Shown here in pieces: positions 1,820 to 20,196 of a DNA stretch of 35,650 bases. Origin of the DNA: a virus; IMG/VR virus record IMGVR_UViG_3300030118_004050, positions 1-35,650 of that record. One strand, written 5' to 3'. The stretch's first letter is position 1, and each line of letters opens with the position of its first letter. The notes beneath the pieces are model-generated. The model was not told where the DNA came from. It was given only the letters and a program-made list of their open reading frames with translations, and did not search any database. The position numbers and the translations under genes are program-made.

Positions 1820-1993
1820 ATGCTTTTGATTCTCAAGCCCTTTGTGATGGCAATGTGGCGCTCCAAAGCTTTCAAAGAGCTGATTATTGCGATGTTGGAG
1901 CGTGTAGTCCAGCGCACGGATAACGACTTAGATGATTTAGCGGTCAAGCATTTGAAGACTTTGCTGTTTCCTGAAACTCGCGTTGACCATTGA
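1820..1993 (+). CDS. Small helical protein of unknown function
   Basis: This is a 57-residue gene too short for most gene finders. The product starts MLLILKPFVMAMWRSKAFKE, continues with a charged helix (LIIAMLERVVQRTDNDLDD) and ends LLFPETRVDH. Its TGA stop overlaps the TTG start of the peptidase gene (TTGA, 1990-1993), a coupling pattern seen throughout this genome and the main reason to call it real. The amphipathic helix with a hydrophobic N-terminus may bind membrane or the neighbouring lysis proteins. No family was recognised with certainty. Confidence 0.65.
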   Translation: MLLILKPFVMAMWRSKAFKELIIAMLERVVQRTDNDLDDLAVKHLKTLLFPETRVDH

Positions 1994-2712
1994 AACGTCT
2001 GATGGCACTTGGGCTACTACCTTTCTTCCAGTTCTTCAGAGGAACGCCGCATCAACTAGCTGCAATTAAGGAGCTTGAGGAGCGAATGCCTCAAGACCTT
2101 CTACAGGAAGAGGACAACGCATGGTTTGATGCGTGGAAAGCAAGCGGCATTGACCAGGAAGTCTTTATGCCTTATTTCAGCCAATTTGACAATGAAACAG
2201 GCACCGGTTATCGAGAGTGTTTCAGTTCAGCGGCTGCCATGGTGGCAGCGTTTTACAAAAAAGTTAAAACTGACGATGAGTACAACGCTATTCGCGTCAA
2301 ATACGGCGACACCACATCTGTTGACGCTCAGATACAAACTTTGAGAAGTCTTGGATTAAATGCTGAGTTTCGCAAAGATGGCGACTCTGATTTAATCGAA
2401 CTAGAGATTGAAAGAGGTCGTCCAGTATTAGTGGGTTGGTTGCATCATGGTGATGTATTACGAGGTGAAGCGCCCCAATGTAATGGGATGGGTTGCGGCC
2501 ATTGGAGCGTTATCAGTGGATATGCGGGAAAGTATTCCAATGATCCTGAGTGGATTATGCAAGATCCACGCGGTATGCCTGACATGGTGCGTGGCGGTCA
2601 TAAAAATGCCCATAGAGGCCGAAATGCAAGAGTGCGACAGTCTGAGTTTTATCCAAGGTGGTCTGTTGACGGACCTAAAACAGGATGGGTAATTTTGGTT
2701 GATGACCTGTAA
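1990..2712 (+). CDS. C39-like cysteine peptidase, candidate lysis enzyme
   Basis: The 240-residue protein carries the papain-like C39 layout. A YFSQFDNETGTGYRECFSSA segment holds the probable nucleophile Cys77, a GCGHWSVISGY segment holds His171, and a QDPRG motif supplies Asp192. An aromatic, positively charged N-terminal stretch (residues 1-20) may contact membrane. C39-like domains cut peptide bonds and are found in phage lysins and in bacteriocin processing. Placement after a TM/coiled-coil protein suggests peptidoglycan peptide cleavage. The TTG at 1990 is coupled to the upstream stop; an ATG at 2002 is the alternative start. Family assignment is fairly sure; the substrate is inferred. 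Confidence 0.8.
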   Translation: MKRLMALGLLPFFQFFRGTPHQLAAIKELEERMPQDLLQEEDNAWFDAWKASGIDQEVFMPYFSQFDNETGTGYRECFSSAAAMVAAFYKKVKTDDEYNAIRVKYGDTTSVDAQIQTLRSLGLNAEFRKDGDSDLIELEIERGRPVLVGWLHHGDVLRGEAPQCNGMGCGHWSVISGYAGKYSNDPEWIMQDPRGMPDMVRGGHKNAHRGRNARVRQSEFYPRWSVDGPKTGWVILVDDL

Positions 2713-3253
2713 GGTAGGTTTTTGGCAACAAGACGTGGCAGTGCTTTGCGACTGGGAGATTAAAGCCCGGTGTGACAAAAATAATATGGTTGTGCCATTC
2801 AATCCAGAGTTATTAAATCCAGCAAGTTTGGACGTATTGCTAGGCAATCACCTAATGATTGAAAGCATTTTCAGCCCTGACTTGATTCGTGTTGACATCT
2901 CACACTACACAGAAGAAGAGCCGTACAGGCTGGAACCCGGCGAGTTTTGCTTGGCTGAGACAATTGAGTTATTTAACTTGCCCGACGACATCAGCTGTCA
3001 ATTTGTACTCAAATCAAGCCGTGCAAGATCTGGTCTTAATCACTTACTTGCTGGTTGGTGCGATCCAGGGTGGCACGGGTCAAGACTAACTCTTGAGCTT
3101 AAAAATGAAAGAGTACATCATGCGCAAATGTTGTATCCAGGTATGAAAATTGGGCAAATGGTGTTTCATGCAATGTCAAACGTTCCAATAAAAAGTTATG
3201 CAGAAACTGGGCATTACAATAATCACTTAACGGTAATGCCAAACGTTGCATGA
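2702..3253 (+). CDS. dcd: dCTP deaminase / dUTPase-superfamily enzyme
   Basis: The protein of about 183 residues contains the dCTP deaminase hallmark LKSSRARSGLN...GWCDPGWHG..LTLELKNE (about residues 103-136). The Glu in LELKNE matches the catalytic Glu of Dcd, and a C-terminal SYAETGHYNN resembles the nucleotide-closing tail. The family deaminates dCTP to dUTP, or in bifunctional forms makes dUMP, feeding dTMP synthesis; which reaction applies cannot be read here. The first ATG at 2702 overlaps the peptidase gene. A GTG at 2735 would give MAVLCDWEIKARC, which looks more like a family N-terminus, with AAGGTAGG upstream at 2711-2718. It is unusual to find it inside the lysis group rather than with replication genes. 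Confidence 0.88.
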   Translation: MTCKVGFWQQDVAVLCDWEIKARCDKNNMVVPFNPELLNPASLDVLLGNHLMIESIFSPDLIRVDISHYTEEEPYRLEPGEFCLAETIELFNLPDDISCQFVLKSSRARSGLNHLLAGWCDPGWHGSRLTLELKNERVHHAQMLYPGMKIGQMVFHAMSNVPIKSYAETGHYNNHLTVMPNVA

Positions 3254-3870: not shown

Positions 3871-4188
3871 TTAGAAGGGAGCATCCTCTGTTTCTTTCTT
3901 AGGTGGCAAGGTGAAATCAGACACATTCAGATTTAGCGAAAACCCTTCTGTACCGTCCTTTTTCTCGTAAGTTGTTATCTTGCCAGAACCTGCAACAGTA
4001 ACCTTGTCACCTTTGTGCAGATACTGCTTGACGACATCTGCGCGTTTTCCCCAAACAGCACAATTGATCCAAGTGGTGTCATCTTTGCCGGTTCTTGCTG
4101 CCAAGCTGAACTCAGCAACCTGAGTGTCTTTGACATCTTTGATTTCAGGGTCTTTGCCGAGATTGCCGTGAGCTGTGATGTTGAGCAT
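3871..4188 (-). CDS. ssb: Single-stranded DNA-binding protein
   Basis: This 105-residue protein is a short SSB of the OB-fold type. It starts MLNITAHGNLGKDPEIK, has the strand pattern QVAEFSLAAR and TTWINCAVWGKRADVVKQYLHKGDKVTVAG, and ends with the acidic tip TEDAPF, matching the D-D-x-P-F tail that recruits partner proteins. It protects and organises ssDNA during phage replication and recombination. Its ATG overlaps the stop of the ribbon-helix-helix gene (TAATG). The neighbouring annealing protein, RusA and exonuclease make a recombination set. The strong terminator just downstream closes the transcript. SSB is usually longer in bacteria (about 170 residues); the missing part is the flexible linker. 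Confidence 0.93.
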   Translation of the reverse strand: MLNITAHGNLGKDPEIKDVKDTQVAEFSLAARTGKDDTTWINCAVWGKRADVVKQYLHKGDKVTVAGSGKITTYEKKDGTEGFSLNLNVSDFTLPPKKETEDAPF

Positions 4189-4367
4189 TACTTACCGTTG
4201 AAAAATTTAGAAACGATGGTTGTCAGCGCCATGTTCACAACACCGTTATGGCGTTGGTTAGCATAATGCCGAAGCTGTTTGGCTAGATCAGAATCCAGCC
4301 TGACTTGGAAGTGGCGATTGCGTCGTTCATCATCGCGCAATGCTTGAACTGTTTTTTCATCAGACAT
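4188..4367 (-). CDS. Ribbon-helix-helix type DNA-binding protein
   Basis: A 59-residue protein that longer-ORF scans miss. The section RHFQVRLDSDLAKQLRHYAN, then HNGVVNMALTTIVSKFF, follows the Arc/MetJ/CopG pattern: one beta strand, a helix, a G/N turn and a second helix. Such proteins bind operators as dimers. The ATG at 4367 overlaps the end of the annealing-protein gene by 8 nt and its TAA overlaps the ssb ATG by 1 nt, so it is embedded in the recombination operon. It is a candidate regulator of the palindromic early promoters in this window; that link is a guess. Confidence 0.75.
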   Translation of the reverse strand: MSDEKTVQALRDDERRNRHFQVRLDSDLAKQLRHYANQRHNGVVNMALTTIVSKFFNGK

Positions 4368-5112
4368 ACTTGTGCATGTTGTCGTTCATCCAATCTTGAT
4401 GCTTTTTGCTAGTCAAGGCTGGAGCAACTTTAGCGTTTTCTGCTAAACCAAAACTCCGTCGAAAGTCTGCAAGAAACGAAGCAAGCTTGTCTTCCTGCAA
4501 TTCTTTGATCAAGCCTAGGCAAAGTTCTCGATCGTTTTTGAAAAGTGGCTGGTCTCCATCTGATACGCCTTCAATTTTAGCCGCAGGTTTGGCACTTTCT
4601 GCTCGTGCTGATGAAGAATCACGCATGGGATTCTCAATCTCTTCTCGTGCCCAAAGCTGCCATGCAAGACCAAACGTAAATGCAGCGCAAGCAGCCAAAG
4701 CTCTTCTGTGTGTGTCTGTTAAATCGCGAGCGGTAACTTTTTCGTAGATAACAGGATTGTTCCTGTTGTCCATGATGGCTTGAGGGAAATCAGGAGTACG
4801 CTCACCATTAGGGCCGGTAAAATAACCGACGACATAGCCAGTGCCATTGGGCGCTTTCCAAACGTGGCTGCTGTCTACATAGTGAGCTAAATGAAATTGA
4901 AAGCCTGGAGCGTGGTCCAAAAGCAACTTAGAAACACGACACCAGTTGACGTAATCCGCTTTGTAACTGCCAGTTCCTTTTTGGCTGACATCGTCAGTTG
5001 TGATAACGCTAGATAAATTAGGAAATGGCTGTGACGGTGATGATTGCGCAGGGTTGCTCTGAGTCATTGGCGTAGCGGCGGGAGGCATTGAGGCTGATGA
5101 CTTGTGCGTCAT
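4360..5112 (-). CDS. Single-strand annealing protein, Sak/DUF1071 type
   Basis: The 250-residue protein has a Pro/Ser/Gln-rich N-terminus (residues 1-35). A core follows (about 48-165) with SYKADYVNWCRVSKLLLDH, a FPQAIMDNRNNPV motif and TDTHRRALAACAAFTFGLAWQLW. This matches what I know of DUF1071 proteins, which are Rad52/Sak-like single-strand annealing proteins. It would coat ssDNA made by the exonuclease and anneal complementary strands. A charged C-terminal region (residues 190-250) may bind SSB. The start at ATG 5112 overlaps rusA by 95 nt; later ATGs at 5088 and 5067 would shorten the overlap, but none has a good ribosome-binding site. Family fairly sure. Confidence 0.8.
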   Translation of the reverse strand: MTHKSSASMPPAATPMTQSNPAQSSPSQPFPNLSSVITTDDVSQKGTGSYKADYVNWCRVSKLLLDHAPGFQFHLAHYVDSSHVWKAPNGTGYVVGYFTGPNGERTPDFPQAIMDNRNNPVIYEKVTARDLTDTHRRALAACAAFTFGLAWQLWAREEIENPMRDSSSARAESAKPAAKIEGVSDGDQPLFKNDRELCLGLIKELQEDKLASFLADFRRSFGLAENAKVAPALTSKKHQDWMNDNMHKYV

Positions 5113-5485
5113 CGTTGAAAATCACACCTTCTGAAAGGGCGTCAAGAATACTTCGACTTAACTTGTCAACATCGCCTACACGGGAAGTGCAGTGCTTAGG
5201 TGCTGCAGGTTTCAGTTGACCGTTGGTGCGAAAATGATTTTTTGGTCTGGCAAAAACAAACGTTGCTGTGACTGCCATTGGCTTATCCAGTATGGCATAC
5301 CAGTCGTGAGGGAGCAAGCCCAGCGCAGTGTGCTTTACGTCTAAGCGCCATGGCTTAACCCTGTCAGAGGATTCAACCATGACGCCTTTGCCGATATGTC
5401 TTTTACTGCCCTGCGGCGCAGGTTTGCCAAGAACAGTAAAAGTAAACGAATTACAGGCGGGAGAAGTGTTCGTCGATTGCACCAT
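5018..5485 (-). CDS. rusA: RusA-type Holliday junction resolvase
   Basis: The protein of 155 residues starts its domain with a strand and GKPAPQGSKR (residues 20-29), then an FVFARPKNH strand and the RusA signature GDVDKLSRSILDALSEG followed by FNDDAQV. Aspartates near residues 105, 107 and 125-126 match the three metal-binding Asp of RusA. The enzyme cuts four-way junctions to resolve recombination and replication intermediates before packaging. ATG 5485 was chosen over the TTG one codon upstream; the gene overlaps both neighbours (34 nt upstream, 95 nt downstream). A sigma70-like promoter is embedded in its coding region at 5289-5317. Confidence 0.9.
   Translation of the reverse strand: MVQSTNTSPACNSFTFTVLGKPAPQGSKRHIGKGVMVESSDRVKPWRLDVKHTALGLLPHDWYAILDKPMAVTATFVFARPKNHFRTNGQLKPAAPKHCTSRVGDVDKLSRSILDALSEGVIFNDDAQVISLNASRRYANDSEQPCAIITVTAIS
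5289..5317 (-). promoter_or_regulatory. Internal sigma70-like promoter in rusA with palindromic core
   Basis: On the minus strand: -35 TTGCTC (5317-5312), 17-nt spacer, -10 CATACT (5294-5289) with an upstream TG (extended -10), predicted start near 5282. It contains CTGGTATGCCATACT, identical to the promoters at 9383 and 9695, with the palindrome GTATGCCATAC at the -10. It would boost transcription of the annealing protein, ribbon-helix-helix protein and ssb. Confidence 0.5.
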
Positions 5486-5693
5486 CAAGCAAGCTCTGAG
5501 CTAGCGCAGATGCTGAGATCTTACGCTCACTGGTGCGAATAGTCTTGCCAGCAATTTCGACTTCACCGGTATAGCAAGGTGCTGCATCGACCAATGCTTG
5601 CAGCTTTGCCTGACGATCTTCTGTGAGGTTGATGGAAGCGGATTTCATAGGAAAGAAGTCGATGAACATGGGGCTTACGCGACTGCTGCCCAC
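5451..5693 (-). CDS. Small protein of unknown function upstream of rusA
   Basis: The frame encodes up to 80 residues from GTG 5693, which is 2 nt after the preceding stop. ATG 5669 and ATG 5648 (MKSASINLTEDRQAKLQALV) are alternatives, and the last looks like a natural N-terminus. The body holds a helix (EDRQAKLQALVDAA), a short beta section (TGEVEIAGKTIRT) and a C-terminal helix (SASALAQSLLDGAIDEHFS). Size and layout would suit a small DNA-binding or adaptor protein. The end overlaps rusA by 35 nt. No family recognised. Confidence 0.6.
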   Translation of the reverse strand: MGSSRVSPMFIDFFPMKSASINLTEDRQAKLQALVDAAPCYTGEVEIAGKTIRTSERKISASALAQSLLDGAIDEHFSRL

Positions 5694-5695
5694 AA

Positions 5696-5839
5696 TTACA
5701 GGTCTCTTTTAAAAGCCTCAAGAAAGGCTTTTTCAAGTGCTGTAAGTTTAGGGTTTTTTTGTTTTAGTGCAGCTTTGGCTCGTGCCTTGGCTTCAGCAAT
5801 AAAATCGTCTGTACGGATGTGACGCGAAAGACGGCTCAT
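5696..5839 (-). CDS. Small basic helical protein
   Basis: A 47-residue protein, MSRLSRHIRTDDFIAEAKAR then AKAALKQKNPKLTALEKAFL, strongly basic and almost entirely helical in pattern. The ATG at 5839 overlaps the stop of the membrane-protein gene by 4 nt (ATGA) and its TAA is 2 nt before the GTG of the next gene. This tight packing is the main evidence for a real gene. The high Lys/Arg/Ala content suggests nucleic-acid contact. Function unknown. Confidence 0.6.
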   Translation of the reverse strand: MSRLSRHIRTDDFIAEAKARAKAALKQKNPKLTALEKAFLEAFKRDL

Positions 5840-6042
5840 TGCTTGAGCTTTTCGCAAGCACGCTGCCAACCTTGTTCACAGTGATGCGCTTGCTGCTGAT
5901 CCAAGGTTGAGGTCAAAGAGTACCAAGCAGCTACACCGAACAAAACACAGGCAACAACAGAAACAATCGTGTTGGTTTTTGCGCTGCTGCGTTCTGGGTC
6001 ATAAAAGCCAGAACGCAGTTTGCGGGATTCATACTTGATCAT
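5836..6042 (-). CDS. Small single-pass membrane protein
   Basis: From ATG 6042 the product has 68 residues: a basic N-terminus (MIKYESRKLRSGFYDPERSS), one membrane segment (TIVSVVACVLFGVAAWYSL, about residues 25-43) and a C-terminal part with two Cys and CEKLKQ. The longer frame from TTG 6102 is rejected because a promoter lies across that codon and predicts a transcript start near 6067. The ATG at 6066 would then be nearly leaderless, while 6042 leaves a leader containing ACCTCAAC like other starts in this genome. Topology N-in with an outer C-terminus is plausible. Function unknown. Confidence 0.6.
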   Translation of the reverse strand: MIKYESRKLRSGFYDPERSSAKTNTIVSVVACVLFGVAAWYSLTSTLDQQQAHHCEQGWQRACEKLKQ

Positions 6043-6073
6043 GAGAAGTTGAGGTAGGCGACTCATGCTCTGC

Positions 6074-6102
6074 ACTATGGCTTGGGTGGTATGCCATGTC
6101 AA
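6074..6102 (-). promoter_or_regulatory. Sigma70-like promoter inside the early minus operon
   Basis: Minus strand: -35 TTGACA (6102-6097), 17-nt spacer, -10 CATAGT (6079-6074), predicted start near 6067. The -35 overlaps the stop codon of the gene at 6099-6227. ATGGCATACC, a variant of the palindrome at the other promoters, lies directly after the -35 box, where a repressor could act. Confidence 0.55.
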
Positions 6103-7354: not shown

Positions 7355-7519
7355 GTGCCAGAACTAGAACAGATCACGAACACTCGCGTTTTGATAGACC
7401 CAAGGGTGATAGCTGAAATTGACCGCAAAAAACCAATTGGTGTCACTCGCACAGGCTGGGTGAACCTGTTGCTGCAAAAAGCCATAGCCTCAGAACCCGA
7501 GCCGCTTTCGCGTGACTAA
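7355..7519 (+). CDS. Ribbon-helix-helix type DNA-binding protein, divergent gene
   Basis: A 54-residue protein from GTG 7355: MPELEQITNTRVLIDPRVIA, then EIDRKKPIGVTRTGWVNLLL and QKAIASEP. Strand (TRVLID), helix (RVIAEIDR), turn (KKPIGVTRTG) and second helix (WVNLLLQKAIA) match Arc/CopG repressors. It is the first rightward gene behind a divergent promoter block, the usual place for an autoregulated switch protein. It overlaps the next gene by 8 nt. The fold is likely; the operator target is inferred. Confidence 0.7.
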   Translation: MPELEQITNTRVLIDPRVIAEIDRKKPIGVTRTGWVNLLLQKAIASEPEPLSRD

Positions 7520-7883
7520 CCCTGACAGCGAGGAACGATCATTTGATCTGCTGCAGTGGATTCCATACTGTCTCCCTGCTGAATATGACGACGATTTAGC
7601 GTTGGTCAGCTATTACAGCAAAACGCAGTCAGAGCGGTCAAATCGCGCTCTGGATGCTTGGGACAAAGAACACCCCTTCAAATCAAGCGATGAGCTAACT
7701 GCTTTTCAAGAACTTGAACGGCTTGGTGTCTACACAAACGACGATTTTTATTCGCCAAGCAAAGCCAAAGATGGACACTACACCAACAGAATCAAGCAGC
7801 TCCGGGATGATTCCCGAAAGCCTGAAGGATCACAAGGAACTTTTAAACAGGCTCGAACACCACGCAAACATCGTCCTCTCTAA
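7512..7883 (+). CDS. Protein of unknown function before the helicase
   Basis: The 123-residue protein starts at GTG 7512, coupled to the preceding gene. It has an acidic, aromatic N-terminal half (DLLQWIPYCLPAEYDDDLAL, YYSKTQSERSNRALDAWDKE) and a basic C-terminal tail. The tail lies in the overlap with the helicase gene (77 nt) and may be constrained by that frame. Position suggests a replication or helicase-loading accessory, but no family motif was recognised. Confidence 0.65.
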   Translation: MTNPDSEERSFDLLQWIPYCLPAEYDDDLALVSYYSKTQSERSNRALDAWDKEHPFKSSDELTAFQELERLGVYTNDDFYSPSKAKDGHYTNRIKQLRDDSRKPEGSQGTFKQARTPRKHRPL

Positions 7884-9393
7884 CGAAGAAGATGCCCTGC
7901 GTCGTTCTCAACTTTTGCGGCTTTATGCCGATGAAGTTGGGCTTCCCATAACGGAAAAAACAGCAGCAATTTTATTGCTGCGGGCGCAAGGTGCAGTTTC
8001 TGGTGTCTGCTTGCCGCGAATGCGTGGCGAAAAAATGGACACAACCCCAACGCCTTGGGCGTGGGAAGGTGTCATTATGGCAGGCACTTTTAACCTGCTT
8101 GTAGCGCCACCAAAGGTGGGTAAGTCTGCACTGATGGTAGGGATGATCAGTGCATGGTTTCACGGTGAAGAATTTTATTTAGGGCAGCGATTGCACGGAA
8201 ATTGCCCAAATATATATATCGTCGGAACAGATCAACCTGAAAGCGATTGGCACACGTTGTTCAAACGTGAGGGTTTAGTTGATCGCGAAGGCAACATGGC
8301 TGGACCTGTTGAAATGCTTTGGCACACAGGAGCGCCTTTGCATCTCACAGAAGGTGGGATTGCGCATCTTGGTGAGATAGCCAAAGCAAACCCTGGATCA
8401 TTTTTTCTGCTGGACAGTTATCACAGCTGTGTTGCTGCTCTCGGAATAGACGAGGCAACCTCAGCATTTGATGGCCCTGCAAGGCAGCTAGCAGAGGCTC
8501 TAGCACCTCATAAAGCCACGCTGGCAATGATCCACCACACCAACAAAAGCGTGAGCGGTGGCAACGCAACTAATGCCAGCAGAGGCAGCAACGCTTTGCC
8601 TGCAGCAGCCAGCCTCACAATCCTCATGAACTGGTTTAAGCAGCCTGCTGAGGGCCAGACACAGAACGATTATCGCGTGGTCTTGAAGACACAAGGCAGA
8701 GCCAAGGGAACAACGCTTCTTATCGAGCTGCAAGACGATGGTTGGATTCACCATGGTGATGGCGAAAGCGTATTGGCTGCAGAAGCCATTCAGGAGGCTT
8801 CAGACGAGCTGCAAGGGCGTCAAGCGGACATCTTTGACTATCTGTGCGACAGATGGGCAGCAGGAGAGTTTCCGGTTACGACGACAGAACTGCAGGACGT
8901 AGCCAAGTGCAATGCAAGCAAGGTCAACCGTGCTTTGCGTGCGCTGGAGAAAAAGTCGCTTGTAAGGCAGCAAGGACAGCTTGAACCTTTGGTTTCTGGT
9001 GGCCGTCCTCAGCTTCTGTGGGTTCCCAATACCCCCTCCTTGGAAAATGGGGAAATAAGGGGAACAAGGGAAACAACCTCGCGCGCGTCATACGAAATAA
9101 GGGGTTATTCCCCTTATTCCCCTTGTTCACCTACTTCTGGGGGAGGGGTAACTGAGGGGTTTTTACCCCCTACCCCTGGAACACCTGTGGAGCTGCATCG
9201 AAACGGTGCCTGGAGCAACGGATGGGTTGTTGTTGACGCAAGCAATGCCAACAGCGTCAGGGCAGCAAAACTGGGCAACTCCAACATCACTGTTGGATCA
9301 CTGCGATGGGATCTGGATGTGCGGCTTTGTCAATCCAGCCCGTTTAGAGCAGCACCTGAAACATCTGATACATCAGACCTGTTTGACTTCTGA
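7807..9393 (+). CDS. RepA/DnaB-like AAA helicase with winged-helix tail
   Basis: From ATG 7807 the protein has 528 residues. An N-terminal helical section (about 1-75) is followed by a RecA-like core with Walker A APPKVGKS (about 100-107), Walker B FFLLDS (Asp about 203) and a MIHHTNKS sensor motif (about 241-248). Next come a SRGSNALPAAAS loop and a winged-helix section (about 340-400). The layout fits the AAA_25/RepA helicases that unwind DNA at phage and plasmid origins. The C-terminal 120 residues are low complexity and encoded by G-run repeats at 9054-9127, followed by a small SH3-like stretch (VELHRNGAWSNGWVVVDAS). No primase or polymerase is visible, so the host probably supplies them. 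Confidence 0.82.
   Translation: MIPESLKDHKELLNRLEHHANIVLSNEEDALRRSQLLRLYADEVGLPITEKTAAILLLRAQGAVSGVCLPRMRGEKMDTTPTPWAWEGVIMAGTFNLLVAPPKVGKSALMVGMISAWFHGEEFYLGQRLHGNCPNIYIVGTDQPESDWHTLFKREGLVDREGNMAGPVEMLWHTGAPLHLTEGGIAHLGEIAKANPGSFFLLDSYHSCVAALGIDEATSAFDGPARQLAEALAPHKATLAMIHHTNKSVSGGNATNASRGSNALPAAASLTILMNWFKQPAEGQTQNDYRVVLKTQGRAKGTTLLIELQDDGWIHHGDGESVLAAEAIQEASDELQGRQADIFDYLCDRWAAGEFPVTTTELQDVAKCNASKVNRALRALEKKSLVRQQGQLEPLVSGGRPQLLWVPNTPSLENGEIRGTRETTSRASYEIRGYSPYSPCSPTSGGGVTEGFLPPTPGTPVELHRNGAWSNGWVVVDASNANSVRAAKLGNSNITVGSLRWDLDVRLCQSSPFRAAPETSDTSDLFDF
9054..9127 (+). repeat. Five 9-bp repeats AAYAAGGGG within the helicase gene
   Basis: Units on the plus strand: AATAAGGGG at 9054-9062, AACAAGGGA at 9063-9071 and AATAAGGGG at 9096-9104. 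On the minus strand: 9110-9118 (CCCCTTATT) and 9119-9127 (CCCCTTGTT). Units 3 and 4 face each other as a perfect 9-bp inverted repeat with a TTATT loop. Further G and C runs continue to about 9180. Iteron-like spacing inside a replication gene suggests an origin or regulatory site; this is untested. Confidence 0.6.
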
Positions 9394-9411
9394 TGGCTGG
9401 TATGCCATACT
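9383..9411 (+). promoter_or_regulatory. Sigma70-like promoter with palindromic extended -10
   Basis: -35 TTGACT (9383-9388), 17-nt spacer, -10 CATACT (9406-9411) preceded by TG, predicted start near A9418. The core CTGGTATGCCATACT recurs at 9709-9723 and inside rusA. The -35 overlaps the end of the helicase gene (stop 9391-9393). It drives the small gene at 9448. Confidence 0.65.
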
Positions 9412-9420
9412 TAATTCATC

Positions 9421-9432
9421 GGGAGAGATCCC
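9421..9432 (+). other. Leader hairpin with GNRA loop
   Basis: GGGA-GAGA-TCCC forms a 4-bp stem with a GAGA tetraloop three nt after the predicted transcript start. A 15-nt AC-rich leader with ACCTC follows before ATG 9448. No Shine-Dalgarno site is present in that leader. Confidence 0.5.
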
Positions 9433-9447
9433 ACAGCCTCAAACCTC

Positions 9448-9681
9448 ATGATCATCGAACGCATTGAAACTGGTCTTTGGACCGCTACCCACAATGGTCA
9501 AACCATCGGTGGCATTTACACGCAAGACGGTGACGGCTGCATAACCCAGCATGTTGGTGGCGGCAGAACCTATCAAGCTGTTTTTCGTCCTAATCCTGAA
9601 TCAGAAGGGTTTTGCTTCGAAGGCAACCTTCGCGCTTGCAAGAAATGGCTGAATGATTGGGCAGGCTTATTTCTTGCTTGA
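9448..9681 (+). CDS. Small beta-rich protein of unknown function
   Basis: A 77-residue protein, MIIERIETGLWTATHNGQTI, continuing with GGIYTQDGDG, TYQAVFRPNP and a C-terminal ACKKWLNDWAGLFLA helix. The alternating pattern suggests a small beta-sheet domain capped by a helix. It has its own promoter and a GNRA-hairpin leader. No family recognised. It is the first of five short genes between the helicase and the terminator at 11286. Confidence 0.7.
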   Translation: MIIERIETGLWTATHNGQTIGGIYTQDGDGCITQHVGGGRTYQAVFRPNPESEGFCFEGNLRACKKWLNDWAGLFLA

Positions 9682-9694
9682 CTTTGGCTAGGGG

Positions 9695-9723
9695 TTGCCT
9701 TTTAACTCCTGGTATGCCATACT
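9695..9723 (+). promoter_or_regulatory. Second copy of the palindromic promoter
   Basis: -35 TTGCCT (9695-9700), 17-nt spacer, -10 CATACT (9718-9723) with upstream TG, predicted start near A9730. From CTGGTATGCCATACTTA through TCATCGGGAG it is nearly identical to the promoter at 9383, including the predicted start region, so one copy probably arose from the other. Confidence 0.65.
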
Positions 9724-9732
9724 TATGTCATC

Positions 9733-9752
9733 GGGAGGCGGGGACGCTTCCC
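9733..9752 (+). other. Leader hairpin with GNRA loop
   Basis: GGGAGGCG (9733-9740) pairs with CGCTTCCC (9745-9752) over 8 bp with one G-U pair, capped by GGGA, a GNRA loop, at the predicted 5' end of the transcript. CAACACCTCAA follows before ATG 9773. Likely a 5' stabiliser or protein-binding site. Confidence 0.55.
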
Positions 9753-9772
9753 ACACCCAACACCTCAAGACA

Positions 9773-10048
9773 ATGTTCCAACGCATCTTCGACACCGAGA
9801 CTTTCAACCCTGCTCTCGGCTTCGCTACCTGCCTCGAAGAAAACGTCGAGACCATCGGAGTTAAAGGCGGCTTCTTTATCGAAAAGGTGACTGTCCGTAA
9901 GGCAGCTGTTGACAGTCTGCACAACACCTGGACCAAGCACGTTGAGACCCGTTTCGTGCTTCGCGACATGGCTACCAACGAGCTTCAGATCAGCGGCACC
10001 CTTGATCGCTGCTTCGCTCACATTGACGCCAAGCTTCTTGCCGCCTAA
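9773..10048 (+). CDS. Small alpha/beta protein of unknown function
   Basis: The 91-residue protein starts at ATG 9773 (MFQRIFDTETFNPALGFATC). The open frame upstream to 9695 covers promoter and leader and is not coding. The sequence has regular strands (GGFFIEKVTVRKA, TRFVLRD) and an amphipathic helix, and no membrane segment. It has no Shine-Dalgarno site and follows a hairpin and an AC-rich leader, so expression is probably controlled by this leader design. No family recognised. Confidence 0.7.
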   Translation: MFQRIFDTETFNPALGFATCLEENVETIGVKGGFFIEKVTVRKAAVDSLHNTWTKHVETRFVLRDMATNELQISGTLDRCFAHIDAKLLAA

Positions 10049-10586: not shown

Positions 10587-10628
10587 ATGTCGGGGAGCCT
10601 GATGCCTGACTTTCCCCCAGCAGGCTGA
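10587..10628 (+). CDS. Possible 13-residue leader peptide
   Basis: ATG at 10587, only 4 nt after the preceding stop, opens MSGSLMPDFPPAG followed by TGA. It runs through the 5' strand of the closing stem and the first inner hairpin of the structured RNA. Pro-Pro shortly before a stop can slow ribosomes, so it could couple translation to RNA folding. No Shine-Dalgarno site of its own; highly tentative. Confidence 0.25.
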   Translation: MSGSLMPDFPPAG

Positions 10629-10691
10629 AAGCTATAAAATACCGAAAGGGAAGGCAGGGCAGCTTTGAGGTGCTGATCTATCCCCCGACAT
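10587..10691 (+). ncRNA. Structured leader RNA, three-way junction type
   Basis: ATGTCGGGG (10587-10595) pairs perfectly with CCCCGACAT (10683-10691), closing about 105 nt. Inside, AGCCTG (10596-10601) pairs with CAGGCT (10621-10626), and AAAGCT (10628-10633) with AGCTTT (10661-10666). A small CC-GAAA-GG hairpin (10642-10649) lies inside the second arm. A pseudoknot between TTCCC (10612-10616) and GGGAA (10648-10652) is possible. It lies in the leader of the 177-residue gene at 10744. I do not recognise a known riboswitch or cyanophage RNA class, and base pairing was judged by eye only. Confidence 0.5.
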
Positions 10692-10743
10692 AACTACCTC
10701 CACCAGTCCACTACCTCCATCCACCACTACCTAAAGGCAAACA

Positions 10744-11277
10744 ATGGCTTCTGCTGTTTTTTCGCATAAACCAATTCCCTGCACTTGGCTAAGGCCAGGG
10801 AATCAGAAACCACATTTTTGCATTGTTCTTATTGGCGAAGAACATGAAAACTATGGTGAACCTGCTATCTGCAATCTTAATCCAGCTCAATACTGGATTA
10901 AGCATTTAAAGGACGGTAATGTTGTTTACGTCACGAACATTCATCGTAGCGAAGAATCTGGTAAGTTACTTTGTGATGCGTCTCCAAATGCTTTTCAGCC
11001 CTTGTTTCAAGGAGTCGCAGAAGGCTTTGGGGAAAAGGAACACGCTATTCAGGCGGAGCTTCCAACACCAAAATTAGAAATTGTTCCTGACTCAACTCCC
11101 CGCAGAATTGAAACTTACTTAAACGACCCGCAGCAAATTCAAGTCTTTGGGGCCCTTGCTAATCACTTGTCAATCAAGCACGCAGGCCACCTTTTGCTTA
11201 CGTACGCAATCGGATGTCTCCCTAGATCTGGGAAAGGCTGGACCGGTGAAGAAATCCACGCGTATTTAACCAAATAA
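10744..11277 (+). CDS. Protein of unknown function behind a structured leader
   Basis: A 177-residue protein (MASAVFSHKPIPCTWLRPGN...) with an N-terminal beta section (HFCIVLIGEE), a lysine-rich mid region, a Pro-rich linker (about 105-120) and a C-terminal helical part (QVFGALANHLSIKHAGHLLL). Soluble, with no catalytic motif I can name. ATG 10744 has AAAGG 6 nt upstream, unlike the Shine-Dalgarno-less genes before it. Its 160-nt leader holds the structured RNA and an ACCTCC-rich tract, so it is probably the regulated target. The strong terminator at 11286 ends its transcript. Confidence 0.75.
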   Translation: MASAVFSHKPIPCTWLRPGNQKPHFCIVLIGEEHENYGEPAICNLNPAQYWIKHLKDGNVVYVTNIHRSEESGKLLCDASPNAFQPLFQGVAEGFGEKEHAIQAELPTPKLEIVPDSTPRRIETYLNDPQQIQVFGALANHLSIKHAGHLLLTYAIGCLPRSGKGWTGEEIHAYLTK

Positions 11278-17128: not shown

Positions 17129-17806
17129 ATGTCCGAAGAACAAAATGCTCCTGTGGAGCAATCACTTGAGCCCAACAAAGACAAATTAGAACTTGAAGCA
17201 ATGAGGCGGAAAAATGCCGAATTGTTGGATGAGTACAAAAAAGCAGTAGCTAAGGCAAAAGCTGTTCCCGATGGCGTTGACATTCAGGAGCTACTGGACT
17301 TCAAAGCTAAGGCGGAGCAAGCAGACCTGGAAAAACAGGGCAAGTACACCGAAGCACGACAAGCTTTGGAGCAGCAATTCCGTGAGGCGACATCGGAAAA
17401 GGACAAGCGCATTGAAGAGCTAGAAGCTCGTGTACGTGAACTTGAGTTAATTGCGCCTGCAAATACTGCGTTAGCTGATGTGGTGCATGATCCAAGCATT
17501 GTTTTCAAAGCTGATTTGCTGAAACCAGATCAGATTGAACGCGAGGCTGATGGCACTGTTGTTGTTGTCAACGGCTATGAGCGCAAGCCGATTGCTGAAT
17601 GGGCTAAGTCATTGCCGAGTTACATGCAAAAAGCACCAAAACCGCAGGGCAGTGGCGCACCTTCTGGCCGCAGCTACTCAGGAGACATTCCTGCAGGCAC
17701 GAAAAACCCGTTTGCCAAAGAAACTTTCAACCTGACTGAGCAATCCCGACTGTTTAGAACAGATCGCGACATGTATGAGAGGTTGAAAACTGCCGCGAAC
17801 CGTTAG
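17129..17806 (+). CDS. Capsid scaffolding protein
   Basis: The 225-residue protein is mainly acidic coiled coil (residues 15-115, with EEQNAPVEQSLEPNKDKLEL and KDKRIEELEARVRELEL). A Gly/Ser/Pro-rich linker and a C-terminal LTEQSRLFRTDRDMYERLK helix follow. Position right before the capsid gene, high charge and coiled coil are typical of scaffolds. No protease domain is visible, so scaffold exit or cleavage is unknown. Confidence 0.82.
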   Translation: MSEEQNAPVEQSLEPNKDKLELEAMRRKNAELLDEYKKAVAKAKAVPDGVDIQELLDFKAKAEQADLEKQGKYTEARQALEQQFREATSEKDKRIEELEARVRELELIAPANTALADVVHDPSIVFKADLLKPDQIEREADGTVVVVNGYERKPIAEWAKSLPSYMQKAPKPQGSGAPSGRSYSGDIPAGTKNPFAKETFNLTEQSRLFRTDRDMYERLKTAANR

Positions 17807-17884
17807 TATGCGGGATAAGGCAAAGCTGTGCTGCGCTTTTTAGGGCTGTGCCCACACCGTAAACATCTTTTTTGAGGATCTGTC

Positions 17885-18907
17885 ATGGCGACTCTTCGCT
17901 CTGACATCATCATCCCAGAGGTATTTACGCCTTACGTCATTGAGCAAACCACTCAGCGTGATGCCTTTTTGGCTTCCGGTGTGGTGCAACCTATGGCTGA
18001 GCTGAATGCTTCGGAGGATGGTGGTGATTTTGTTCAAGTGCCTTTCTACAAGGCCAACCTGTCAGGCGATTTTGAGCGTCTGACGGATAGCTCTTCACTG
18101 ACTCCTGGCAAGATCACAGCAGACAAGCAAGTTGCTGCTGTCCTGCATCGTGGTCGTGCTTTTGAAAGCAGAGATCTCGCAGCTTTGGCTGCAGGTTCTG
18201 ACCCCATGGCTGCTATCGGCAACAAGATTGCTGATTACATTGCTAACCAGCGTCAAAAGGATCTTTTGTCCTGTTTGGCTGGTGTGTTTGGCGCAGTCGA
18301 TGACAACGCCTCTGCTGCATTCCTTGGTTTGACTGTTGATGGTGCAAGTGGCGATACGCCAACTGTGCTTGGGCCACGTCAAATCGTGGAAGCCAAATCC
18401 ATCTTGGGTGATCAAGGCGAAAAGCTGACCGCCATCGCTATGCACCCAAAGGTTTATTACGACCTGATGGAGCGTCGTGCGATCGATATGATCTACGACA
18501 ACACTGGCGCGCCTGACACTGCGGCTGATTCTGGTTCTACCGCTCCTGCCTTTGGCAGTGTGCAGGTTCCAACCTTCATGGGTCTGCGTGTAATCGTGTC
18601 TGCTGATGTGCAGACCACTGGTTCAGGTTCTTCCACCGAATACGCAACTTACCTGTTTACTCAGGGAGCTGTTGGTTCTGGTGAGCAGCTTGGTTTACAG
18701 ACTGAGACTGATCGCGACATTCTTGCCAAGAGCGATGCAATGAGCATCGATTTGCATTATGTCTATCACCCGATCGGCTCTAAGTTCTCCACCTCCGTTT
18801 CTAACCCAACTCGGGCACAACTAGAAACAGTGGGCAACTGGACCAAGGTTTACGAGACGAACAACATCGGAATTGTTCGGATTACCACCACCAGCAACCT
18901 TGACTGA
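17885..18907 (+). CDS. Major capsid protein
   Basis: The 340-residue protein starts MATLRSDIIIPEVFTPYVIE and resembles the gp13-like/coat family with an HK97-type fold. The E-loop region is rich in DGGDFVQVPFYKANLSGDF, with an ANQRQKDLLSCLAGVFGAV helix, a KLTAIAMHPKVYYDLMERRA spine segment and a C-terminal strand (GIVRIT). A GAGGA site lies upstream of ATG 17885 in a 78-nt leader, one of the best ribosome sites here. The scaffold before it and decoration protein after it support the call. Confidence 0.88.
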   Translation: MATLRSDIIIPEVFTPYVIEQTTQRDAFLASGVVQPMAELNASEDGGDFVQVPFYKANLSGDFERLTDSSSLTPGKITADKQVAAVLHRGRAFESRDLAALAAGSDPMAAIGNKIADYIANQRQKDLLSCLAGVFGAVDDNASAAFLGLTVDGASGDTPTVLGPRQIVEAKSILGDQGEKLTAIAMHPKVYYDLMERRAIDMIYDNTGAPDTAADSGSTAPAFGSVQVPTFMGLRVIVSADVQTTGSGSSTEYATYLFTQGAVGSGEQLGLQTETDRDILAKSDAMSIDLHYVYHPIGSKFSTSVSNPTRAQLETVGNWTKVYETNNIGIVRITTTSNLD

Positions 18908-18922
18908 CGGAGGTAACTAATT

Positions 18923-19288
18923 ATGTCATCCATTTTTGAGGCAACAGCAGGCAACTTTGTAGGCCCTGCAACTGGCGGCACTGTCACTCAGGCCACCAGC
19001 AAGGCTACTGCCGTGACTCTTAATGCTGAGTCCGGTCAGATCACCCTCGACGATGCTGCACTTGCAGCAGCCGCTGAGGTTTCTTTCACTGTCAACAATG
19101 ACAAGATCGCCGCCACTGATGTGGTGGTGTGCAACCACGGTTCTGGTGGAACCGCTGGCTCTTACCTTGTGCAGGCAAACAGCATTGCTGCTGGATCTTT
19201 CAAGATCACTGTGGCTAACCTGTCCACCGGCTCACTTGGTGAGGCAATCGTTGTGAACTTCGTGGCTCTGAAGGGCGCTAGCTCCTGA
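18923..19288 (+). CDS. Capsid decoration-like protein
   Basis: The 121-residue protein (MSSIFEATAGNFVGPATGGT...) is an Ala/Thr/Ser/Val-rich beta protein with TLNAESGQITLDDAALAAAA and VVVCNHGSGGTAGSYLVQAN. It is preceded by GGAGGTAA, a very strong ribosome site, 16 nt after the capsid stop. Small beta proteins here usually cement the capsid. I recall similar repeats in phage head and spike proteins. Role inferred from position and expression signal. Confidence 0.75.
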   Translation: MSSIFEATAGNFVGPATGGTVTQATSKATAVTLNAESGQITLDDAALAAAAEVSFTVNNDKIAATDVVVCNHGSGGTAGSYLVQANSIAAGSFKITVANLSTGSLGEAIVVNFVALKGASS

Positions 19289-19458
19289 TGGGTTTATTCG
19301 CATTTAGGCGGATGAAGGAACGTGAGGCTGCTGCGCAAGCGGCAGTCTCTAGTTCTGAAAACCCTGCCCAGAAAACTTCTACTGTGACGCCTGATGGCAG
19401 TAACAATCGACGCAACAGCGGGAGGCGCAAACGCCAACAGCTACATAACGCTGGCTGA
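19288..19458 (+). CDS. Small basic protein after the decoration gene
   Basis: A 56-residue protein, MGLFAFRRMKEREAAAQAAV, then a polar Ser/Thr section and a basic tail (RRNSGRRKRQQLHNAG). The start overlaps the previous stop (TGATG), and the end overlaps the next gene by 65 nt in another frame. I recall small MGLFAF-starting proteins in phage head modules. Function unknown. Confidence 0.62.
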   Translation: MGLFAFRRMKEREAAAQAAVSSSENPAQKTSTVTPDGSNNRRNSGRRKRQQLHNAG

Positions 19459-19954
19459 AGCTGACACTTTTGTGGAGGCGATGATCAGTAGTTCTGATGT
19501 ATCAAACTGGACTACTGGCAACGATGACACGCGCAATCGTGCTTTGACTGCTGCGGCAGAAAGGCTTGATCGAGAAAGATTTTTAGGCGCTCGCGCAACA
19601 GATACGCAAGCAAGGCAATGGCCGCGTACTGGTGTAAGAAAGCCTGACACGTACGTCAATACTTACGCGACTGGCTTTCCGTTTCGGATTTCTGAGGATT
19701 ATTTTACTGATACCGAAATCCCTGATCAAGTCAAACGTGCTCAGATCGAGTTAGCTGTTTATTTAAAAAATAACGTTGACGGCATAAGCCTTGGTGGCTT
19801 GGAAGATTTCAAGAGCGTCAAGATCGGCAACATAGAAGTAACGCCTGACAAGTCTGGAGCGATTGGAGCTGATCGCGTGCCGCCAATGTTTGAAAGGTAC
19901 TTGACAGGTCTTAGAATTAGTGGACCAGGCAACATCGCAATCAAACGGAGCTGA
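19394..19954 (+). CDS. Head-tail adaptor, DnaT-like ssDNA-binding-domain type
   Basis: The 186-residue protein (MAVTIDATAGGANANSYITL...) has the head-completion layout: an N-terminal NSYITLAEADTFVEAMI, helices with RNRALTAAAERLDRERFLG, QWPRTGV, and a late IPDQVKRAQIELAVYL helix. Databases call this family a putative DnaT-like protein, but in phages it is a connector under the portal. Location after capsid genes agrees. Confidence 0.8.
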   Translation: MAVTIDATAGGANANSYITLAEADTFVEAMISSSDVSNWTTGNDDTRNRALTAAAERLDRERFLGARATDTQARQWPRTGVRKPDTYVNTYATGFPFRISEDYFTDTEIPDQVKRAQIELAVYLKNNVDGISLGGLEDFKSVKIGNIEVTPDKSGAIGADRVPPMFERYLTGLRISGPGNIAIKRS

Positions 19955-19956
19955 TC

Positions 19957-20196
19957 ATGCAAGCCATTGCACGCTACGAGCATCTAAACCCGCACTTCAT
20001 CAGCGATACGGCCACGCACACTGGCCGGTTCTGGAAGATCGTGTCACTTGAAGACTCGGAGTTTCACACGCTCGTAGGAGAAAATTTCACTGGTAACGCT
20101 TTGACCACTGTGGTGTTCAAAGCCAGCTGTGAGATTCAAGGCGTTTTCACCAGTATCAAGCTGAATGGTGGCGCTGTCGTTGCTTATCGAATCTGA
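19957..20196 (+). CDS. Small structural-region protein
   Basis: The 79-residue protein has a GRFWKIVSLEDSEFHTLVGE section, GNALTTVVFKASCEIQGVFT and a C-terminal GGAVVAYRI, a beta-rich pattern common in small tailed-phage structural genes of unknown role. The start is 2 nt after the adaptor stop; the stop overlaps the next ATG (TGATG). Probably a head, neck or spike accessory. Confidence 0.7.
   Translation: MQAIARYEHLNPHFISDTATHTGRFWKIVSLEDSEFHTLVGENFTGNALTTVVFKASCEIQGVFTSIKLNGGAVVAYRI

Follow-up and report, generated by a model that had tools for sequence, protein, structure and literature searches.

Four promoter-like sequences in a 35,650-nucleotide stretch of viral DNA (IMG/VR record IMGVR_UViG_3300030118_004050; hereafter the window), one of them embedded in the coding sequence of the resolvase gene rusA, share a 10-bp near-palindrome, TGGYATRCCA, which recurs in predicted promoters of related marine phages and accompanies a gene for a predicted 59-aa ribbon-helix-helix protein (RHH59). 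On balance, we think it likely that a repressor made by the phage, with RHH59 as the foremost candidate, uses TGGYATRCCA as its operator; the targets would include a weak promoter within rusA and, through it, the repressor's own gene. If this is true, the same bases would encode part of RusA and form a switch for transcription of the repressor gene.

A 10-bp element shared by four promoter-like sequences

The preliminary description of this DNA had proposed, from three exact 15-mers, that several promoters, one of them inside rusA, have a regulatory site in common, and this proposal is supported. A search of the window located the 15-mer CTGGTATGCCATACT at 5289-5303 (-), 9397-9411 (+) and 9709-9723 (+), the first of these within rusA as claimed, and found nothing else even with as many as three mismatches allowed (shuffled sequences average 0.63 matches at the same tolerance). 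At each copy a TTG-starting -35 element lies 17 nt before CATACT, again as described (TTGCTC at 5317-5312, TTGACT at 9383 and TTGCCT at 9695), and the rusA copy does encode W-Y-A-I-L in frame. The two right-hand 15-mers sit in a 43-nt repeat (9383-9425 and 9695-9737, 81% identical) that contains a promoter sequence (TTGACT or TTGCCT, 17 nt, CATACT) ahead of two small ORFs. The variant that had been listed at the 6074-6102 promoter is real: its minus strand reads TTGACA-TGGCATACCA-CCCAAGC-CATAGT, with seven nucleotides between TGGCATACCA and CATAGT, and carries a fourth copy of TGGYATRCCA. The shared functional unit is this 10-bp near-palindrome rather than GTATGCCATAC, which is an odd palindrome; the window contains it exactly at 5293, 6087, 9398 and 9710, within the following elements, the 10-bp unit being meant throughout.

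6074..6102, minus strand: left-operon promoter TTGACA-17-CATAGT, its -35 element immediately followed by the candidate operator TGGCATACCA (6096-6087)
5289..5317, minus strand: predicted internal rusA promoter TTGCTC-17-CATACT with an extended -10 TG; the candidate operator overlaps the spacer and the -10 element
5293..5302, minus strand: candidate operator TGGTATGCCA in rusA, covering codons W63-Y64-A65 plus one base (from motif search and synonymous invariance)
9383..9411, plus strand: promoter TTGACT-17-CATACT, candidate operator at 9398-9407, upstream of a 77-aa ORF (9448-9681)
9695..9723, plus strand: promoter TTGCCT-17-CATACT, candidate operator at 9710-9719, upstream of an ORF starting at 9773

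TGGYATRCCA recurs among relatives recruited by rusA similarity, at a frequency far above chance: it is present in 17 of 21 whole records, compared with 0 of 21 for the reversed control, and 72 loci (607 kb) recruited by the RHH protein alone contain 95 copies, as against 0-7 for seven control palindromes. With rusA and non-rusA sites separated by coordinates, 65 of the 66 distinct copies found outside rusA in contigs of related marine phages lie inside a TTG-N16-18-xAxxxT promoter, a loose test that 9% of random positions pass; a promoter score of at least 8 is reached by 64 of the 66, compared with about 2% of random positions. Nearly all of these promoters combine a 17-bp spacer with a -35 element whose first base is 6, 7, 8 or 15 nt upstream of the motif. 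The shared site is thus present at several promoters of one genome, where it is placed to hinder polymerase. Copies are found in both orientations within promoters, as expected for a symmetric dimer; for this reason, and because the motif takes two main positions in the spacer, a sigma-factor contact was rejected. A host regulon or prophage was also rejected: 50 genome contigs match the promoter pattern, as against a chance expectation of about 120 in 257 billion bases (our own estimate), and none of them is titled as a cyanobacterium.

Synonymous constraint on the copy within rusA

The gene that contains the intragenic copy encodes a protein with a RusA domain, scoring 42.9 bits against PF05866 (curated cut-off 22.8); a single-sequence search of the PDB for RusA gave no match.

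5018..5488, minus strand: rusA, RusA-like Holliday junction resolvase (Pfam PF05866, PHROG 140)

Synonymous variation in the rusA genes of relatives had been named beforehand as a check, and it came out in favour of the site, with the codons of the site invariant and both their neighbours and the clades lacking the site variable. Over 39 distinct rusA genes, L58 is TTG in 35/35, Y64 is TAT in 31/31 and A65 is GCC in 34/34 (the denominators being the genes that have those residues), and TTG makes up just 17% of the leucine codons in these genes. By parsimony, none of the three columns has undergone a synonymous change on the tree, compared with 3-12 changes at other leucine columns and 3-11 at other alanine columns, and codon 60, between the informative codons, and codon 68, after them, change freely. 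Only 7 of 96 testable columns are free of change, and the probability that all three named columns would be so by chance is about 2e-4, a figure in which related sequences are not independent, yet are compared within the same tree.

The first base of codon 66 is always A in W-Y/H-A rusA genes with an intact site, and some rusA genes have H in place of Y, a nonsynonymous TAT-to-CAT change that makes a perfect palindrome, TGGCATGCCA, out of TGGTATGCCA. In phages recruited by the RHH protein, which were chosen regardless of rusA or motif (some records overlap the rusA-recruited set), W-Y/H-A rusA genes again carry TTG-N12-TGG(T/C)ATGCCA at the usual promoter spacing. The W-D-I, W-N-I and W-A-D types of rusA are without the TTG and show ordinary wobble variation, and one rusA gene (L026/L377) has lost the site (TGGTATCCCA). 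An overlapping gene was rejected as the source of the constraint, no other frame being open in all relatives. The intragenic site is under synonymous constraint and, because silent invariance is found at the informative codons and free variation elsewhere, it looks like selected DNA, held by selection on silent codon positions. The same bases would serve here both as protein code and as regulatory DNA, a clean natural example for which the sister clades act as controls.

A second cluster of synonymously invariant rusA codons, which counts against the operator reading, comprises codons 35, 46, 49 and 50 (GGC, CCA, CAA and GAC), at about 5339-5386 (-).

RHH59 as the candidate regulator

The minus-strand genes run in the order left promoter, 88-aa ORF, 80-aa ORF, rusA with its internal site, sak, RHH59, ssb, the last three being as follows.

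4360..5112, minus strand: Sak-like single-strand annealing protein (PF06378), downstream of the rusA site
4188..4367, minus strand: RHH59, predicted 59-aa ribbon-helix-helix protein and candidate regulator; it has an HFQVRLD strand and follows rusA and sak in the same direction
3871..4188, minus strand: ssb (PF00436), downstream of the rusA site

Two ribbon-helix-helix proteins had been suggested as regulators, and the one encoded at 4188-4367 emerges as the best candidate, whereas the distribution of the other, a 54-aa RHH-like ORF at 7355-7519, does not fit: several phages with the site lack this ORF, and S-CBS1 has it although the part of S-CBS1 examined contains no site. Alone among the small proteins encoded near the site, RHH59 follows the motif. 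It is found in site-bearing contigs wherever the contig includes its region, and in KBS-S-2A, S-CBS1, L299 and L300 the parts examined contain neither motif nor RHH59. The isolated phage S-CBS3 carries two copies of the motif, each in a -15-type promoter, and its gp32 matches a profile built without it (E 2.6e-10). In L298, which has no motif, a homologue of the RHH59 helices (9582-9797, -; 2e-6) has its HFQVRL strand replaced, a single case, possibly of changed or lost specificity. RHH59 and TGGYATRCCA make up a concrete, testable candidate regulator-operator pair for mostly uncultured marine cyanosiphoviruses, and one that can be tested in a cultured system, since S-CBS3 is isolated and has both site and protein.

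Weak matches and the pattern of the strand make RHH59 a candidate Arc/AmrZ-like ribbon-helix-helix protein. Its match to RHH_1 is weak (E 0.016, 15.6 bits, below the 20.5 cut-off), as are the best Arc match among its relatives (E 0.0009) and its own best PDB match, AmrZ, which aligns in register (E 0.21). Across 18 diverse members, Q21 and R23 of the strand do not vary, and neither do R15 and L24. AmrZ reads GGC, contacting G and C bases through Lys18, Val20 and Arg22 (PMC3325190), residues that align with H19, Q21 and R23 of RHH59.

In the mechanism we propose, an RHH59 dimer would bind the 10-bp near-palindrome through the HFQVRLD strand and, once bound, would block host RNA polymerase at the left-operon, small-gene and weak rusA-embedded promoters, a block suggested by the operator, which occupies the promoter spacer or overlaps the -35 and -10 elements. 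Repression at the rusA copy would be autorepression, since sak, the RHH gene and ssb lie downstream of it: a weak internal promoter serving sak-RHH-ssb is probably under the control of the rusA site, and the repressor would shut this promoter, and with it its own transcript, as recombination proteins accumulate. We take the effect to be repression; the regulator may instead activate. More tentatively, and as an account we hold to be somewhat short of probable, an RHH repressor would act on a 10-bp operator in the spacers of early-region promoters, and the whole promoter-operator unit would have been copied into rusA in a lineage-specific manner.

The ORF at 5451-5693 (-), upstream of rusA, was also considered as regulator and rejected, as it is not found in L201, L218, L225 and L247. 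By eye it has a strand-helix-helix-like pattern (SASINLTED...SASALAQSLLDGAI), and it has no Pfam match of that kind.

Alternative explanations

The preliminary description took the recognised unit to be GTATGCCATAC, lying over the -10 element, and although this odd palindrome fits three window copies, its right arm TAC is missing at 6087 and in many relatives, where offsets of -6 to -8 put the motif away from the -10 element and TGGYATRCCA is still intact. We regard such recognition as extremely improbable, and GTATGCCATAC as an accident of the -15 placement, since there the motif runs into CATACT and the -10 hexamer supplies the right arm of GTATGCCATAC. The rusA copy might equally be thought a coding coincidence, W-Y-A-I-L happening to need these bases, given that the W is conserved in the RusA of this group and that chance alone should give about one pair of identical 15-mers in this much DNA (our own estimate). 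This reading is very improbable in view of silent invariance at exactly the informative codons, with free variation between them and in sister clades, and of a spacing to TTG that is the same as at the other promoters. That TGGYATRCCA is a true operator read by another phage protein or by a host factor is improbable too, if less markedly so: a conserved 88-aa ORF (5836-6102) co-occurs with the motif in IMG/VR contigs, but its product has a hydrophobic stretch and no PHROG match, it has no match in S-CBS3, which has the motif, and the distributions of ORFs 5451-5693 and 7355-7519 do not follow the site.

The main rival for the rusA copy itself is an operator without a working promoter, which would serve as an auxiliary site that strengthens repression of the left operon, in the manner of lac O2, or as a roadblock in the manner of L5 stoperators. 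Phage repressors are known to use scattered sites at which elongation is stopped (PMC4557955), and the core in rusA is invariant while the -10 and -35 elements there are weak, with promoter scores of 6-8 of 12 compared with mostly 9-11 for the other copies. Three sequences retain the core and lack the TTG (L201, L225 and L247), two of which (L201 and L225) have lost the -35 element and have a better -10 (CATAAT). Against this, a TTG in the -35 position and the A/T of the -10 are preserved at 31 of 34 distinct rusA sites; the three exceptions apart, the TTG is invariant in exactly that position, and it occurs only with operator-type rusA. The distance to the left operator, moreover, varies from about 600 to 1700 bp with no fixed phasing. 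We consider the auxiliary operator unlikely, though more credible than the alternatives above, and retain repression of a weak internal promoter as the preferred reading. The leader hairpin typical of many right-operon promoters was not found after the rusA sites. On the antisense strand of rusA in L019, L029, L031 and L038, TTGACA-16-CATGTT or a similar sequence adjoins the operator, a possible antisense promoter.

Comparison with known systems

The lac auxiliary operator O2 is a repressor site within the lacZ coding sequence; the rusA copy differs from it in having a -35-like TTG at promoter spacing. Arc/AmrZ-type repressors (P22 Arc, Pseudomonas AmrZ) resemble RHH59 in being short, with an X-F-Q/N-V/L-R-type strand before two helices, and resemble the phage system in having a short site with GG/CC; AmrZ also represses its own gene (PMC3325190). 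The phage system differs in using a single 10-bp site in the spacers of many promoters, and RHH59, known here from sequence alone, has very low sequence similarity to them. TrcR of Anabaena, an autoregulated cyanobacterial RHH repressor, likewise recognises a short site that overlaps or lies close to the -10 element at several promoters (PMC10272220), but it is chromosomal and not phage-borne, and its site is TGTAGTAT-like. Mycobacteriophage BPs gp33 and the L5 stoperators are similar in that one phage repressor has several dispersed sites, the BPs OR being situated between -35 and -10; they belong to other protein families with other sites, and the excerpt of that account describes no coding-sequence site kept by synonymous constraint (PMC4557955). 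A full-text literature search for the site sequence gave no phage paper among the matches listed, all of which were unrelated.

Leaders and other features of the window

Downstream of right-operon promoters, in the region of about +1 to +20, comes a short hairpin whose GNRA loop is GAGA or GGGA; in the window it falls within 9412-9435 and 9724-9755.

9421..9432, plus strand: leader hairpin GGGA-GAGA-TCCC, GNRA loop, first small-gene transcript
9733..9752, plus strand: leader hairpin GGGAGGCG-GGGA-CGCTTCCC, GNRA loop, second small-gene transcript

Such hairpins occur in 30 of 81 downstream stretches, compared with 0.2% of shuffles, and in none of those in rusA; 11 different stem sequences are represented, with pairing kept. 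The hairpin is possibly an mRNA-protecting or translation leader, and no Rfam family scored above its gathering score in the region. The -10 of the left-operon promoter ends 7 nt before the ATG (ATGAGTCGCC) of the 88-aa ORF (6064-6074, -), a spacing that recurs in relatives, and because of this short gap the left-operon transcript is probably leaderless.

No tyrosine integrase was found in the whole window. The head genes (17339-19959) are 73% identical to those of cyanophage KBS-S-2A, and an endolysin and a dCTP deaminase are encoded at 1990-3253. Paired inverted repeats of the GGGGAACAAGGG type (I12, I13) lie at 9050-9132, inside a helicase-like ORF (7714-9393). Upstream of the ORF at 10744-11277, the stretch 10588-10700 has, by eye, long complementary ends (GTCGGGGAG ... 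ATCCCCCGAC), which suggests a structured leader.
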